IMG/VR virus record: IMGVR_UViG_3300035180_001778
Coordinates: 248,001-312,000 of that record
Reading direction: 5' to 3' (one strand)
Origin: a virus
Length of the DNA: 64,000 nt
Below, in pieces: positions 1,659 to 54,848 of the stretch. The first letter of the stretch is position 1; the number at the start of each line of letters is the position of its first letter. The notes beneath the pieces are model-generated. The model had not been told where the DNA came from and ran no database searches. It saw only the letters and a program-made list of their open reading frames with translations. The position numbers and the translations under genes are program-made.

Positions 1659-1684
1659 TACAGGAAGGCCCTGGTTGCGATCAA
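1659..1684 (-). promoter_or_regulatory. TTGATC-N16-TGTA promoter for tRNA-Leu(CAA)
   Basis: Exact motif on the minus strand. The TGTA block ends 4 bases before the mature tRNA 5' nucleotide, so the RNA may start at or very near its mature end. Confidence 0.7.
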
Positions 1685-35291: not shown

Positions 35292-35582
35292 GCATGACCC
35301 CCATCACCTTCTCCGCCGAAGCGTTGGAAGACCTTCCCGATGCCATCTGGATCCCCTCGCCGGTTCCAGTGTTCTACCGCGGCGCTCCACCGGAGATGAT
35401 CCAGGCGATGGTCTCGGGCAAAAGACGCCGGAAGCCTCTCCGCCAGAACGTGAAGTTCCTGCTCGAAGAAGCGGGAGATCCTTCTGGGCCTACCGGGCAA
35501 CGTCGATGATGACGCCCTCGCGGCCATGTTCATCTTCGCCCTCCTCGATGTCGGCGTCGCCAAGGTCGTCCCCATGGCCTAG
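35288..35582 (+). pseudogene. phage protein with frameshift in its second half
   Basis: The first frame gives MTPITFSAEALEDLPDAIWIPSP and GAPPEMIQAM; the expected C-terminal part REILLGLPGNVDDDALAAMFIFALLDVG sits in another frame up to TAG at 35580-35582. One deleted base near 35470 would join them. Start overlaps the previous stop. Confidence 0.6.
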
Positions 35583-46682: not shown

Positions 46683-46895
46683 CTACTCAAGATCGTCGAG
46701 GAGATGCTCCCAGCCGGTCGGTCTCTTGTCCGCCAGCTCTTGGAGCATCCCGATCTGGAATTCTTTCGCTTCTTCCTTCGTGATGTTTCCACTGGCGTAC
46801 TCGTACTCGACGCAGGGACACGAGCGGAACATGATCCGCCCGTTGCAAACGGGGCAGCGGACGGGAGGGCAATTCTTCCGTCCGTCTCGCATCAT
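46683..46895 (-). CDS. small zinc-binding protein with shared tail
   Basis: 70 residues. CPVCNGRIMFRSCPC forms a likely zinc site, a helical middle follows, and it ends RPTGWEHLLDDLE. It overlaps the end of the nucleotidyltransferase gene (46892). Confidence 0.65.
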   Translation of the reverse strand: MMRDGRKNCPPVRCPVCNGRIMFRSCPCVEYEYASGNITKEEAKEFQIGMLQELADKRPTGWEHLLDDLE

Positions 46896-48046
46896 AGCTG
46901 CTCCCACACCGTGAGGGCGGGCCGCGGAGCTGCCGCCCACGAAGGGGCCATGGACTCCTCGATGAGCTGCACACAGACCTCTTCCAGGCCCGCACGGTCC
47001 GGTTGCTGCGGGAGGAGGCTGGTCCTCATCAGCTCCGACAGCTCCGCATCCTGAGCCACAGCCCACGACACGAGTTCGTCGTAGGTCCACATCCCAGCTC
47101 GGATCTCCAGAAGCTCAGCAGCATCCGGCTTACGAACGAGTACGCCTTTTCCTGACAGGATTTCACGGCACATCCGGAGAAGCCTGACCAAGTGCATGGC
47201 GTGTTTGGTGTCGTACCCAAACTTCTCTTCCAGAGCGGCCCTTGCCGGGTTCCGGTTCTTCTTCCACTCCTGGTACTGAGACCAGGTCCGATGGGCCGCC
47301 GTGTACCTCCGCTCCTTGTCGAGCAGCTCGATGAAGTTCGTGTCGTACCCGACACTTCGAGCAGCCGCTTGCCAGGTGTTCACTTCGACGTCATCCCAGG
47401 ACCACTTGGTGACCTCCAAGAGACGCTCGGTGAACAGCTCCCGCATGCGGATCCGGGCCGGCTCGTCGAACTCCTCCATGTCCCGCCACCGCCAAGAATC
47501 GAGGACCTTGGTGATGGCAGAGGTTGCCGCTGCGAGCTGGTCGGCGGGGATGACCGTTCGCTCGGGAAGCCCGAACTCGGATCGCAAGGGCTGAGCCTTC
47601 GGGGGATCCTTGAGCCACTTGTAGTGTATGTTGATCCTCTTGAGCTGAGCGGTCGCGTACCCTGAGAACGTGTGTTTGGCCTTCCGCGAGAGGAAGCTGT
47701 CACGCTTCTCCCGGATGCGCTCCCACTCGGGGCTCAGGACCAGGTGATCGCTCGGGTCCGTGTAGAGCAGCTCCAAAACGTTGGGGTTGCAGTCGCACGC
47801 GAGGAGGAAGAACTTCCGGATGTCGAAGATCGTGAAATCCGGCTCGTGTTGCTCCGCTTGCTCGAAACGGTTGTGGGGCTGGAAGCCGAGGTAGTTCACC
47901 TTCGGGGCAATGCAGACCCCACGCAAGTCCAGGTCACTCGTCGGCAAGTTGGTGCCGTAGGCCTGGCTCCCGTGCCGAGTGATGAACAGGGTCCGCTGAG
48001 GAAGCCAGCCGAGGTTGCCCTTGTAGATGTTCCAGTCGAAGCTCAT
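46892..48046 (-). CDS. predicted nucleotidyltransferase
   Basis: 384 residues from ATG 48046. GSQAYGTNLPTSDLDLRGV (residues 25-43) is the G-S and D-x-D signature of the polymerase-beta nucleotidyltransferase superfamily, in the group of large bacterial and phage predicted transferases. The rest is helical. Substrate unknown; RNA end repair is one idea given the tRNA array. Ends ALTVWEQL. Confidence 0.8.
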   Translation of the reverse strand: MSFDWNIYKGNLGWLPQRTLFITRHGSQAYGTNLPTSDLDLRGVCIAPKVNYLGFQPHNRFEQAEQHEPDFTIFDIRKFFLLACDCNPNVLELLYTDPSDHLVLSPEWERIREKRDSFLSRKAKHTFSGYATAQLKRINIHYKWLKDPPKAQPLRSEFGLPERTVIPADQLAAATSAITKVLDSWRWRDMEEFDEPARIRMRELFTERLLEVTKWSWDDVEVNTWQAAARSVGYDTNFIELLDKERRYTAAHRTWSQYQEWKKNRNPARAALEEKFGYDTKHAMHLVRLLRMCREILSGKGVLVRKPDAAELLEIRAGMWTYDELVSWAVAQDAELSELMRTSLLPQQPDRAGLEEVCVQLIEESMAPSWAAAPRPALTVWEQL

Positions 48047-50421: not shown

Positions 50422-50718
50422 ATGTACGACATTGTCAAAGGCACCCGCATTCGGGCCGAAGTCTTCAGAGCAAAGGAGCTGGGCACGTACTCCATCGCTG
50501 GAGCCCAACCCAAGGTGATTGGCGACTTCATCACCGTCGTGGGCAAGGTGACGCACATCTACGGCGACCACCCCACGGCTCCGACCAAGTACGAGATCCA
50601 CGTCCAGCCGGATGACGGTGGGCCTGAAGTCGTCATCGGCGAGAGCTGCATCCGCGCGATTCAGCCCGCGCGCGATTCAGCCCGCGGTCGGTTGATCCGA
50701 AACCTCCTACTCCTGTAG
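50422..50718 (+). CDS. SH3-like small protein, end altered by a tandem duplication
   Basis: 98 residues, beta-rich (IRAEVFRAKELGTYSIAG). A 16-bp tandem duplication (about 50655-50687) shifts the frame; with one copy the protein would end IQPAVG at the TGA inside the next promoter's TTGATC box. As given it reads through the promoter to TAG at 50716-50718. Confidence 0.6.
   Translation: MYDIVKGTRIRAEVFRAKELGTYSIAGAQPKVIGDFITVVGKVTHIYGDHPTAPTKYEIHVQPDDGGPEVVIGESCIRAIQPARDSARGRLIRNLLLL
50655..50687. repeat. 16-bp tandem duplication
   Basis: GCGATTCAGCCCGCGC occurs twice in tandem. Confidence 0.85.
50692..50717 (+). promoter_or_regulatory. TTGATC-N16-TGTA promoter
   Basis: Exact motif 9 bases before ATG 50727. 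Confidence 0.78.
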
Positions 50719-53111: not shown

Positions 53112-53137
53112 TTGATCGGGACGACCCACAAAGTGTA
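53112..53137 (+). promoter_or_regulatory. TTGATC-N16-TGTA promoter
   Basis: Exact motif 29 bases before ATG 53167; an AGGAG follows, so this message has a leader. Confidence 0.72.
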
Positions 53138-53166: not shown

Positions 53167-54102
53167 ATGACGAAGCCGACCACGAAGAAGACCAAGACCT
53201 CCGGCCGCTCCGCGACGCAGCGGATGACCGACAGCAAGATCGACGCGACGGCGGGTTCGATCGTGAACGTCCCGGTGAACGACATAACGTTCGCCCCCAA
53301 GGGTTCGGCTCTGGCCCACCCCCGCGAGCACTACCCGATCAACGAGGCCCTTCGCGACGACATCGTCAAGAACGGCGTGCAGAAGCCGATCAAGGTTCGC
53401 GACGACGGGAACGACTCGAACGGCAAGCGGATCCTGACCTTGGTTGACGGCGCTCAGCGGACCATCAACGGCAAGGCGGCTCAGGCCATCCTTGTGGAGC
53501 GCGGGCTCCTCGCGAAGGCTGGCAACGTCCTCCGCGTCAAGGTGGTGTTCGTCACGGGGAGCGATGCGGAGTGCCTCCTGGAGCGTCTCCGGAGCAACAC
53601 CGACCCGCTGAAGGTGGCCGACAGCCTCAGCGTGCTCTCCGCCACCTTCATTCAGCTCGACCTGCTGGGTGTGTCCGTTTCGGAGATGGTCGCGGTCGCC
53701 CCCAAGGGCATCGGGCCCCGGGAGATCGACGCTCTCCTCCGCTTCGGCAACCTCCTCCCGGAGGTTCAGATCCGGTTCGACAACGGCTCGGCTCCGGTCG
53801 GGCTCCTCTCCGCGGTGCTCGATGCCTCGCGGAACGAGCAGGGGAAGAAGCTCGACGAGCTGCTCTCCGCTGGGGTGAAGACCGGGAAGGGCGCCACGCG
53901 GGCCCAGAACAAGGCGGATGGCAAGACGGAGCGCCCGCATCCCGCCAAGGTCCGGAAGCTCATCGCGGCTCTGGAGGCTCTCCCGGGTAGCACGCAAGTC
54001 GAGGGGATCATCCTCGGCCTCAAGCTCTCGCTCGGAGAGAACTTCCCCCTTCACCTCCCCAAGGACGTGAAGGACGCTCTCTCGGGAGTTCTGAGCAAGT
54101 GA
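53167..54102 (+). CDS. ParB/Srx-fold protein
   Basis: 311 residues. VPVNDITF, INEALRDDIVKNGVQKPIKVRDDG and LVDGAQRTINGKAA match the ParB N-terminal (ParB/Srx nuclease-like) fold. A helical middle follows. Such phage proteins act in DNA segregation, transcription or as nucleases. ATG follows an AGGAGACAAG site. No parA gene nearby. Confidence 0.72.
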   Translation: MTKPTTKKTKTSGRSATQRMTDSKIDATAGSIVNVPVNDITFAPKGSALAHPREHYPINEALRDDIVKNGVQKPIKVRDDGNDSNGKRILTLVDGAQRTINGKAAQAILVERGLLAKAGNVLRVKVVFVTGSDAECLLERLRSNTDPLKVADSLSVLSATFIQLDLLGVSVSEMVAVAPKGIGPREIDALLRFGNLLPEVQIRFDNGSAPVGLLSAVLDASRNEQGKKLDELLSAGVKTGKGATRAQNKADGKTERPHPAKVRKLIAALEALPGSTQVEGIILGLKLSLGENFPLHLPKDVKDALSGVLSK

Positions 54103-54122
54103 ACGGAAGAGGGGTGCGGAGG

Positions 54123-54148
54123 TTGATCCTCCCACCCCTCTTGGTGTA
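54123..54148 (+). promoter_or_regulatory. TTGATC-N16-TGTA promoter for a plus-strand tRNA
   Basis: Exact motif 12 bases before the tRNA 5' end at 54161. Confidence 0.75.
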
Positions 54149-54160
54149 CGTAGAAGTAAC

Positions 54161-54233
54161 GCTCCCGTAGCTCAATTGGCTGAGCAGCGGATTTCAAATC
54201 TGTTGTATAGGGGTTCGAGTCCCCTCGGGAGCA
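54161..54233 (+). tRNA. tRNA with UCA anticodon (UGA-reading)
   Basis: 73 nt. Acceptor GCTCCCG/CGGGAGC perfect, D-arm GCTC/GAGC, T-arm GGGG/CCCC, anticodon stem GCGGA/TCTGT with loop TTTCAAA: U33, anticodon TCA. It reads UGA. It lacks the long variable arm and 8-bp acceptor of selenocysteine tRNA. G1-C72 and A73 do not match bacterial Trp (A1-U72, G73). An alternative pairing giving CAA (Leu) pairs worse. The only plus-strand tRNA seen. Confidence 0.75.
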
Positions 54234-54246
54234 TTCGGAGAAGACA

Positions 54247-54534
54247 ATGAGCGCAACGACGGACGACGAAGATCGAAAAAAGGCACCTCTCCGAAAGGTC
54301 TTCTCGATCTACTGGTACGTGAAGGCCGAGGGGGTGGTGTTCGGCCCTAACTGGGGGGACTACACGGATATCAATCCTGCGGTACACGACCATGGCTCTG
54401 ATCCCATCGTTGAGAACAGACTCGGGATGTACCAACCCTCAGATATCCTCGAAGCCAAGGAGATCCTGCGATCCAAAGGCTTCAAGAACGTTCGCGCCGT
54501 GAAGGTCACGGTCTATCGGAAGCAGCGGGGCTAG
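54247..54534 (+). CDS. hypothetical protein
   Basis: 95 residues, beta-rich (VFSIYWYVKAEGVVFGPNWGDY) then helix (SDILEAKEILRSKGF). The fold order resembles small ACT- or ferredoxin-like phage proteins; not recognised. Shares the tRNA's promoter region, so it may be co-transcribed with it. Confidence 0.65.
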   Translation: MSATTDDEDRKKAPLRKVFSIYWYVKAEGVVFGPNWGDYTDINPAVHDHGSDPIVENRLGMYQPSDILEAKEILRSKGFKNVRAVKVTVYRKQRG

Positions 54535-54848
54535 ACCAGCGCGAGAGGAAGTCTCTGAAGGAGCTTCCTGCCATTCGGCTCGATGGCAATGGCCGTCATC
54601 TCATTCTGCCGATCGGGTTCATGGAAGACCGAGCACTTGATGTCTCGGTCTTCTGCCTTTTGTACCAGCTTCCTGAGCGCCATCTCATCCGGCACGGCCT
54701 TGAGGATGAGGTAGTTCGAGGTCTTGTACCACTCCCGATCGATCTCGGGATGTTGGTCGACGAACTCCCGGAAAGCGTGAGCCGCTTGAATGGCCTGTTG
54801 CCCGGCGGGAAGGTCGCTGCGTGTGACGAGGAAGAGCTTCTGATTCAC
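54531..54848 (-). CDS. pth2: peptidyl-tRNA hydrolase 2 (PTH2)
   Basis: 105 residues. KLFLVTRSDLPAGQQAIQAAHA at the N-terminus and KCSVFHEPDRQNEMTAIAIEP later are the signature segments of the PTH2 family, found in archaea, eukaryotes and some phages. It frees tRNA from abandoned peptidyl-tRNA, which fits the tRNA array and tmRNA. Stop overlaps the end of the opposite gene. Confidence 0.85.
   Translation of the reverse strand: MNQKLFLVTRSDLPAGQQAIQAAHAFREFVDQHPEIDREWYKTSNYLILKAVPDEMALRKLVQKAEDRDIKCSVFHEPDRQNEMTAIAIEPNGRKLLQRLPLALV

Follow-up and report, generated by a model that had tools for sequence, protein, structure and literature searches.

The stretch of DNA analysed here (the window, 64,000 nucleotides) corresponds to positions 248001-312000 of a 350,469-base jumbo phage record, and contains a tRNA gene with the anticodon UCA in the following surroundings (window coordinates):

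53167 to 54102, plus strand: upstream gene of 311 aa, weakly ParB-like (PHROG match, phrog_1033), ending at TGA
54120 to 54129, plus strand: AGGTTGATCC, the -35-like part of the phage's promoter-like motif (from its count in the window)
54143 to 54149, plus strand: GGTGTAC, a -10-like box placed at the constant 16-nt distance, which fits a second motif, YYGGTGTA, too (motif statistics)
54161 to 54233, plus strand: tRNA gene, anticodon UCA, A73, no encoded CCA (ARAGORN, Rfam, fold z)
54247 to 54534, plus strand: 95-aa ORF starting 13 nt past the tRNA (ORF call)
54531 to 54848, minus strand: convergent gene for a PTH2 peptidyl-tRNA hydrolase (PF01981, E 2.6e-9)

The 95-aa ORF, for which the PHROG and Pfam searches gave no match, stands between the UCA tRNA and the PTH2 gene and probably shares a transcript with the tRNA. 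The remaining Rfam tRNA matches in the whole record all fall on the minus strand, within 242.6-265.6 kb, and the UCA tRNA stands by itself on the plus strand, at 302.16 kb and approximately 37 kb from this array, being the only phage tRNA outside of it; an earlier reading made from the letters alone (the sequence-only reading) had correctly placed it on the strand opposite to the array. Elsewhere in the window (46892-48046, minus strand), the phage encodes an RlaP-like nucleotidyltransferase of an RNA repair family (PF10127, E 1.5e-21), which is possibly tied to tRNA repair, the phage being rich in tRNAs.

ARAGORN places one tRNA at exactly 54161-54233 (plus strand), with the anticodon TCA at position 34, and the Rfam model RF00005 matches the gene over its full length (64.7 bits, E 9e-12), with the third-highest score among the 36 Rfam tRNA matches in the whole 350 kb record. 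The predicted cloverleaf has a 7-bp acceptor stem (GCUCCCG/CGGGAGC), a D stem GCUC/GAGC, an anticodon stem GCGGA/UCUGU closing the 7-nt loop UUUCAAA (U33, U34-C35-A36, A37), a short variable loop of 5 nt and the T arm AGGGG-UUCGAGU-CCCCU, and its fold is significant (z = -4.4). By inspection, a near-full set of conserved tertiary positions is kept (U8, A14, G18G19, U33, U54-U55-C56, A58, C61 and A15:U48), the single departure being U21, while the discriminator is A73 and the CCA end is not encoded. The label “SeC” assigned by ARAGORN arises because the tool names any UCA anticodon so; the hallmarks of tRNA-Sec are an 8- or 9-bp acceptor stem, a long D stem and a long variable arm, and SelC is ruled out by the 7-bp acceptor and the 5-nt variable loop, with RF00005 as the best Rfam model. 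The covariance alignment likewise rules out the anticodon CAA, a shift in pairing that the sequence-only reading had raised against itself, since it places U34-C35-A36 in the anticodon. Its description of a well-formed UCA tRNA is thus borne out by ARAGORN, the full-length Rfam match and the alignment: the gene is a canonical tRNA with the anticodon UCA, able to read UGA and possibly UGG as well.

The “exact promoter” attributed to the tRNA by the same reading is real as a motif and is best called promoter-like: an exact copy (TTGATC at 54123-54128, 16 nt, TGTA at 54145-54148) precedes the gene, and TTGATC-N16-TGTA occurs at 26 sites in the window, compared with 0.04 expected from shuffles. 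The fuller motif, RGGTTGATC(C/G)-N16-TGTAG, was drawn from the statistics of upstream regions and has 88 loose matches in 324 kb; in 82 of these the gap from TTGATC to TGTA is exactly 16 bases, and 57 lie close upstream of predicted starts, often at 8 to 11 bases, a distance suggesting that the 5' leaders are very short or absent. Further sites of this fuller motif in the window are at 53112-53137, 50692-50717 and 1659-1684 (minus strand). Because TTGATC-N16-TGTA also precedes tRNAs of the array, e.g. by 4 bases at tRNA-Leu(CAA), it would represent a transcription signal, with the start very near TGTA. The motif is abundant in the small-gene blocks (20-57 kb and 244-331 kb) and scarce in the structural and replication block; it is thus characteristic of small accessory genes, so nothing marks the UCA tRNA as late, and the suggestion that it may act late finds no support. 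The second motif, YYGGTGTA, is located approximately 10 bases before starts at about 50 sites in the phage record (e.g. 315592, plus strand, and 321385, minus strand), without a TTGATC box, and is perhaps another promoter class; the sequence ahead of the UCA tRNA matches both motifs, an overlap that is not beyond chance.

Whether a UGA-reading tRNA reflects a changed code was assessed with a home-made codon-usage gene caller run on 324 of the 350 kb, a crude tool whose counts are approximate, the contrasts being large. Among its 397 predicted genes, 269 end at TGA, 95 at TAG and 33 at TAA, in agreement with the earlier statement that many genes stop at UGA; TGA makes up 68% of the stops and is the commonest one in each block, the structural block being the same as elsewhere. 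When TGA is read as an amino acid, the coding density drops from 0.77 to 0.565 and from 0.856 to 0.564, whereas reading TAG or TAA in that way alters it little. There are 30 stop-start overlaps of the ATGA type. Under strong opal suppression, back-up TAA or TAG codons would be expected after TGA in the phage; such codons occur within 10 codons after 4.8% of TGA stops vs 15.6% of other stops, a deficit which arises partly because the next gene often starts at once. The portal (550 aa, ending at TGA), the large terminase (678 aa, ending at TAG) and a head-protease-like gene each give an uninterrupted PHROG profile match, and the record lacks the release factor domain PF00472 as well as the synthetase domains PF00579 (TrpRS/TyrRS-type) and PF00133. 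Genome-wide recoding of UGA is ruled out by the sharp fall in density and by TGA being the main stop, and late-gene recoding by the stop usage being alike in all blocks; the proposal that the tRNA reads UGA in late or structural genes therefore does not hold, the portal, the terminase and the structural block being ordinary. The phage uses the standard code. Recoding of UGA across the genome or in late genes, as in crAss-like phages, has nothing in its favour other than the anticodon UCA, is refuted for the 324 kb covered, and must be considered extremely improbable. Such phages, e.g. Lera, carry a tRNA-Sup-TCA together with UGA-to-Trp recoding (PMC7886860, PMC12386605), the isotype of the Lera suppressor being predicted as Trp or Arg (PMC12386605); the UCA anticodon is common to them and to this phage, whereas this phage lacks the TGA codons found inside the signature genes of recoding crAss-like phages.

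The search for in-frame UGA in phage genes that the sequence-only reading had proposed yielded one candidate site in 324 kb, close to the complete absence that it had named as speaking against its own suggestion. In-frame neighbours joined by TGA (e.g. the 550-aa and 988-aa genes and GroEL) mostly start a few codons past the TGA and were taken as ordinary neighbours, and a second coding-like stretch past a TGA, at window positions 35454-35580, continues another frame and represents a frame switch, not readthrough. In this latter region (35300-35580, plus strand), the coding signal shifts frame inside a short unassigned ORF, by a frameshift that is either programmed or degenerate. Of all the stop codons tested, one TGA has strongly coding-like flanks on both sides and no start for 22 codons; it lies just outside the window at position 316140 of the record (G000), where it splits a 177-aa ORF (L018:3609-4142) from 48 codons ending in TAG, the whole spanning L018:3609-4289, or G000 315609-316289. 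With a coding score of 0.395 per codon, this 48-codon stretch ranks first among 935 open frames that lie outside predicted genes (for comparison, genes score 0.20 and non-genes -0.30 with an sd of 0.155). It speaks for programmed readthrough in one gene or a few genes of the phage, in which the tRNA would read this UGA and add 48 residues: the extension has no usable start of its own, and the site is the sole one of its kind in the 324 kb. It is, on the other hand, a single case, with no homologues in phages, Pfam or PHROGs and only the identical record in IMG/VR; this near relative (G001) is identical over every stretch compared and so provides no comparative information. The site is also unrelated to the position of the tRNA gene, and it would be explained equally well by a newly arisen nonsense change, by an error in the consensus or by an unusual start. 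Programmed readthrough as the purpose of the tRNA is rated as decidedly unlikely, and the 177-aa ORF is best taken as a lead, a candidate for a gene with readthrough that may instead have acquired a nonsense change recently or reflect a faulty consensus.

The amino acid carried by the tRNA was approached through its relatives and identity elements. Its closest counterparts among 50,697 GenBank phage records are the tRNA-Trp(CCA) genes of phages ZY21, CM1 and RAS14, with 84% identity over 56 nt that cover the D arm, anticodon arm, variable loop and the start of the T arm. The tRNAs of Pseudomonas phage ZY21 and Stenotrophomonas phage RAS14 differ from it in having a CCA anticodon, G73 and a different acceptor stem. 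The body of the UCA tRNA (D and anticodon arms) is thus Trp-like, and C35 and A36 suit TrpRS; the identity elements of this synthetase, A1-U72 and G73, are present in the CCA-anticodon tRNA of the phage, whereas the UCA tRNA has G1-C72 and A73. Other synthetases are disfavoured: C20 speaks against ArgRS, the absence of G3:U70 against AlaRS, and the shortness of the variable loop against SerRS and LeuRS. Trp therefore appears to be the best, albeit uncertain, guess from these elements, and the tRNA might be charged poorly, because A73 and G1-C72 are poor for TrpRS and no other synthetase is clearly indicated.

The leading rival to UGA readthrough is extra decoding of UGG, which this kinship favours: the tRNA would be a spare Trp isoacceptor, reading UGG by U34 wobble and e.g. 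escaping a host nuclease, with UGA reading being incidental. In line with that, Trp codons are frequent in the phage (TGG, 15 per 1000), and its sole CCA (Trp) tRNA (L008:16546-16627, minus strand) is atypical and has a long D stem; it is missed by the ordinary Rfam tRNA model and scores best against the tRNA-Sec model, at 40.6 bits, below the threshold of 47, which leaves room for the UCA tRNA to assist in UGG reading. A second phage (L011) has a Trp-like UCA tRNA with G73 and CCA. The spare-tRNA explanation is nonetheless weakened by the G1-C72 and A73 of the UCA tRNA, by a CCA tRNA being present already, and by the unwanted UGA reading that a UCA anticodon entails, and it is regarded as unlikely, if still a serious contender.

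A pattern scan of IMG/VR detected UCA tRNAs with a similar body on six further contigs, in addition to the identical record, the discriminator bases varying among these tRNAs. One of the contigs, the low-GC L036, shows a rise in coverage if TGA is read as sense and encodes a class-Ib synthetase; the others, on a rough count, do not look recoded, and several end genes at TGA. Contig 3300035698_017588 of IMG/VR contains two UCA-anticodon tRNAs in tandem (L039:5703-5849). The pattern used found no UCA tRNA in the distant relative LR745208.1, which has a weak tRNA call (L026:2030-2106) with the anticodon UUA, one that would read UAA.

Among described phages, the nearest parallel is Agrobacterium phage Atu_ph07, described as having a UCA suppressor among 33 tRNAs and 267 UGA stops (PMC6102473). 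The two have in common one UCA tRNA with A73 in a giant, tRNA-rich phage with many UGA-ended genes; the Atu_ph07 tRNA differs in encoding CCA and in having another body, with no close sequence kinship seen. The jumbo phages XacN1 and RsoM2USA similarly combine the standard code with orphan suppressor tRNAs, theirs being amber (CUA) and reading UAG, where the one described here reads UGA (PMC5852040, PMC8504454), and in silico read-through in XacN1 found no targets (PMC5852040). Suppressor tRNAs without recoding have been discussed as incipient code change or as a means of disturbing host proteins (PMC7886860, PMC12386605), and Yutin et al. described one born by a single anticodon change in a phage without recoding (PMC7886860). 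Such a precedent favours the view that the UCA tRNA is an incipient or relic code change or a product of drift, acquired or mutated and tolerated since it is hardly charged, with which the poor charging that A73 and G1-C72 may imply would agree. Against this, the sequence is very well maintained and comes with a promoter-like motif to itself, pointing to selection on the tRNA; this view as a whole is held to be rather unlikely.

The explanation we prefer, tentatively and at somewhat less than an even chance, is that of an orphan tRNA of the opal type, carried by a jumbo phage with the standard code, whose main role would be limited readthrough of UGA; extra decoding of UGG may accompany or replace it. 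The expression, charging, decoding and target that we infer for it would proceed as follows: the tRNA would be transcribed from a promoter specific to the phage, its leader, no longer than ~12 nt, would be trimmed by host RNase P, and the CCA end would be added by a CCA-adding enzyme; a host synthetase, most likely though not certainly TrpRS, would charge it, and the charged tRNA would compete with the release factor RF2 at UGA. The outcome would be low-level UGA readthrough in the infected cell, on host mRNAs, whose UGA stops the sequence-only reading had thought it may suppress, and perhaps on one phage gene, and not a change of code. An efficient suppressor would be costly to a phage in which 68% of the stops are TGA; since UGA is the main stop of the phage and back-up stops are lacking, its suppression has to be weak or limited, and the readthrough is therefore most likely low-level. 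In a more specific proposal, the tRNA would be an opal suppressor made for counter-defence or host takeover, expressed from the accessory-gene promoter class and lengthening UGA-ended host proteins, with the phage's own UGA-ended genes tolerating or resisting readthrough; this we consider quite unlikely.

Suppressor tRNAs in non-recoding phages are on record with their purpose unexplained, in Atu_ph07, XacN1, RsoM2USA and zeta crAss-like phages, and the UCA tRNA joins this already known group of orphan suppressors, with Atu_ph07 as the published precedent. The puzzle is sharpened in the present phage, where the suppressed codon is its own main stop and the tRNA is well kept and has its own promoter-like motif, and the one candidate readthrough gene offers a testable target. 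More generally, a suppressor tRNA alone is no ground for inferring a changed code.
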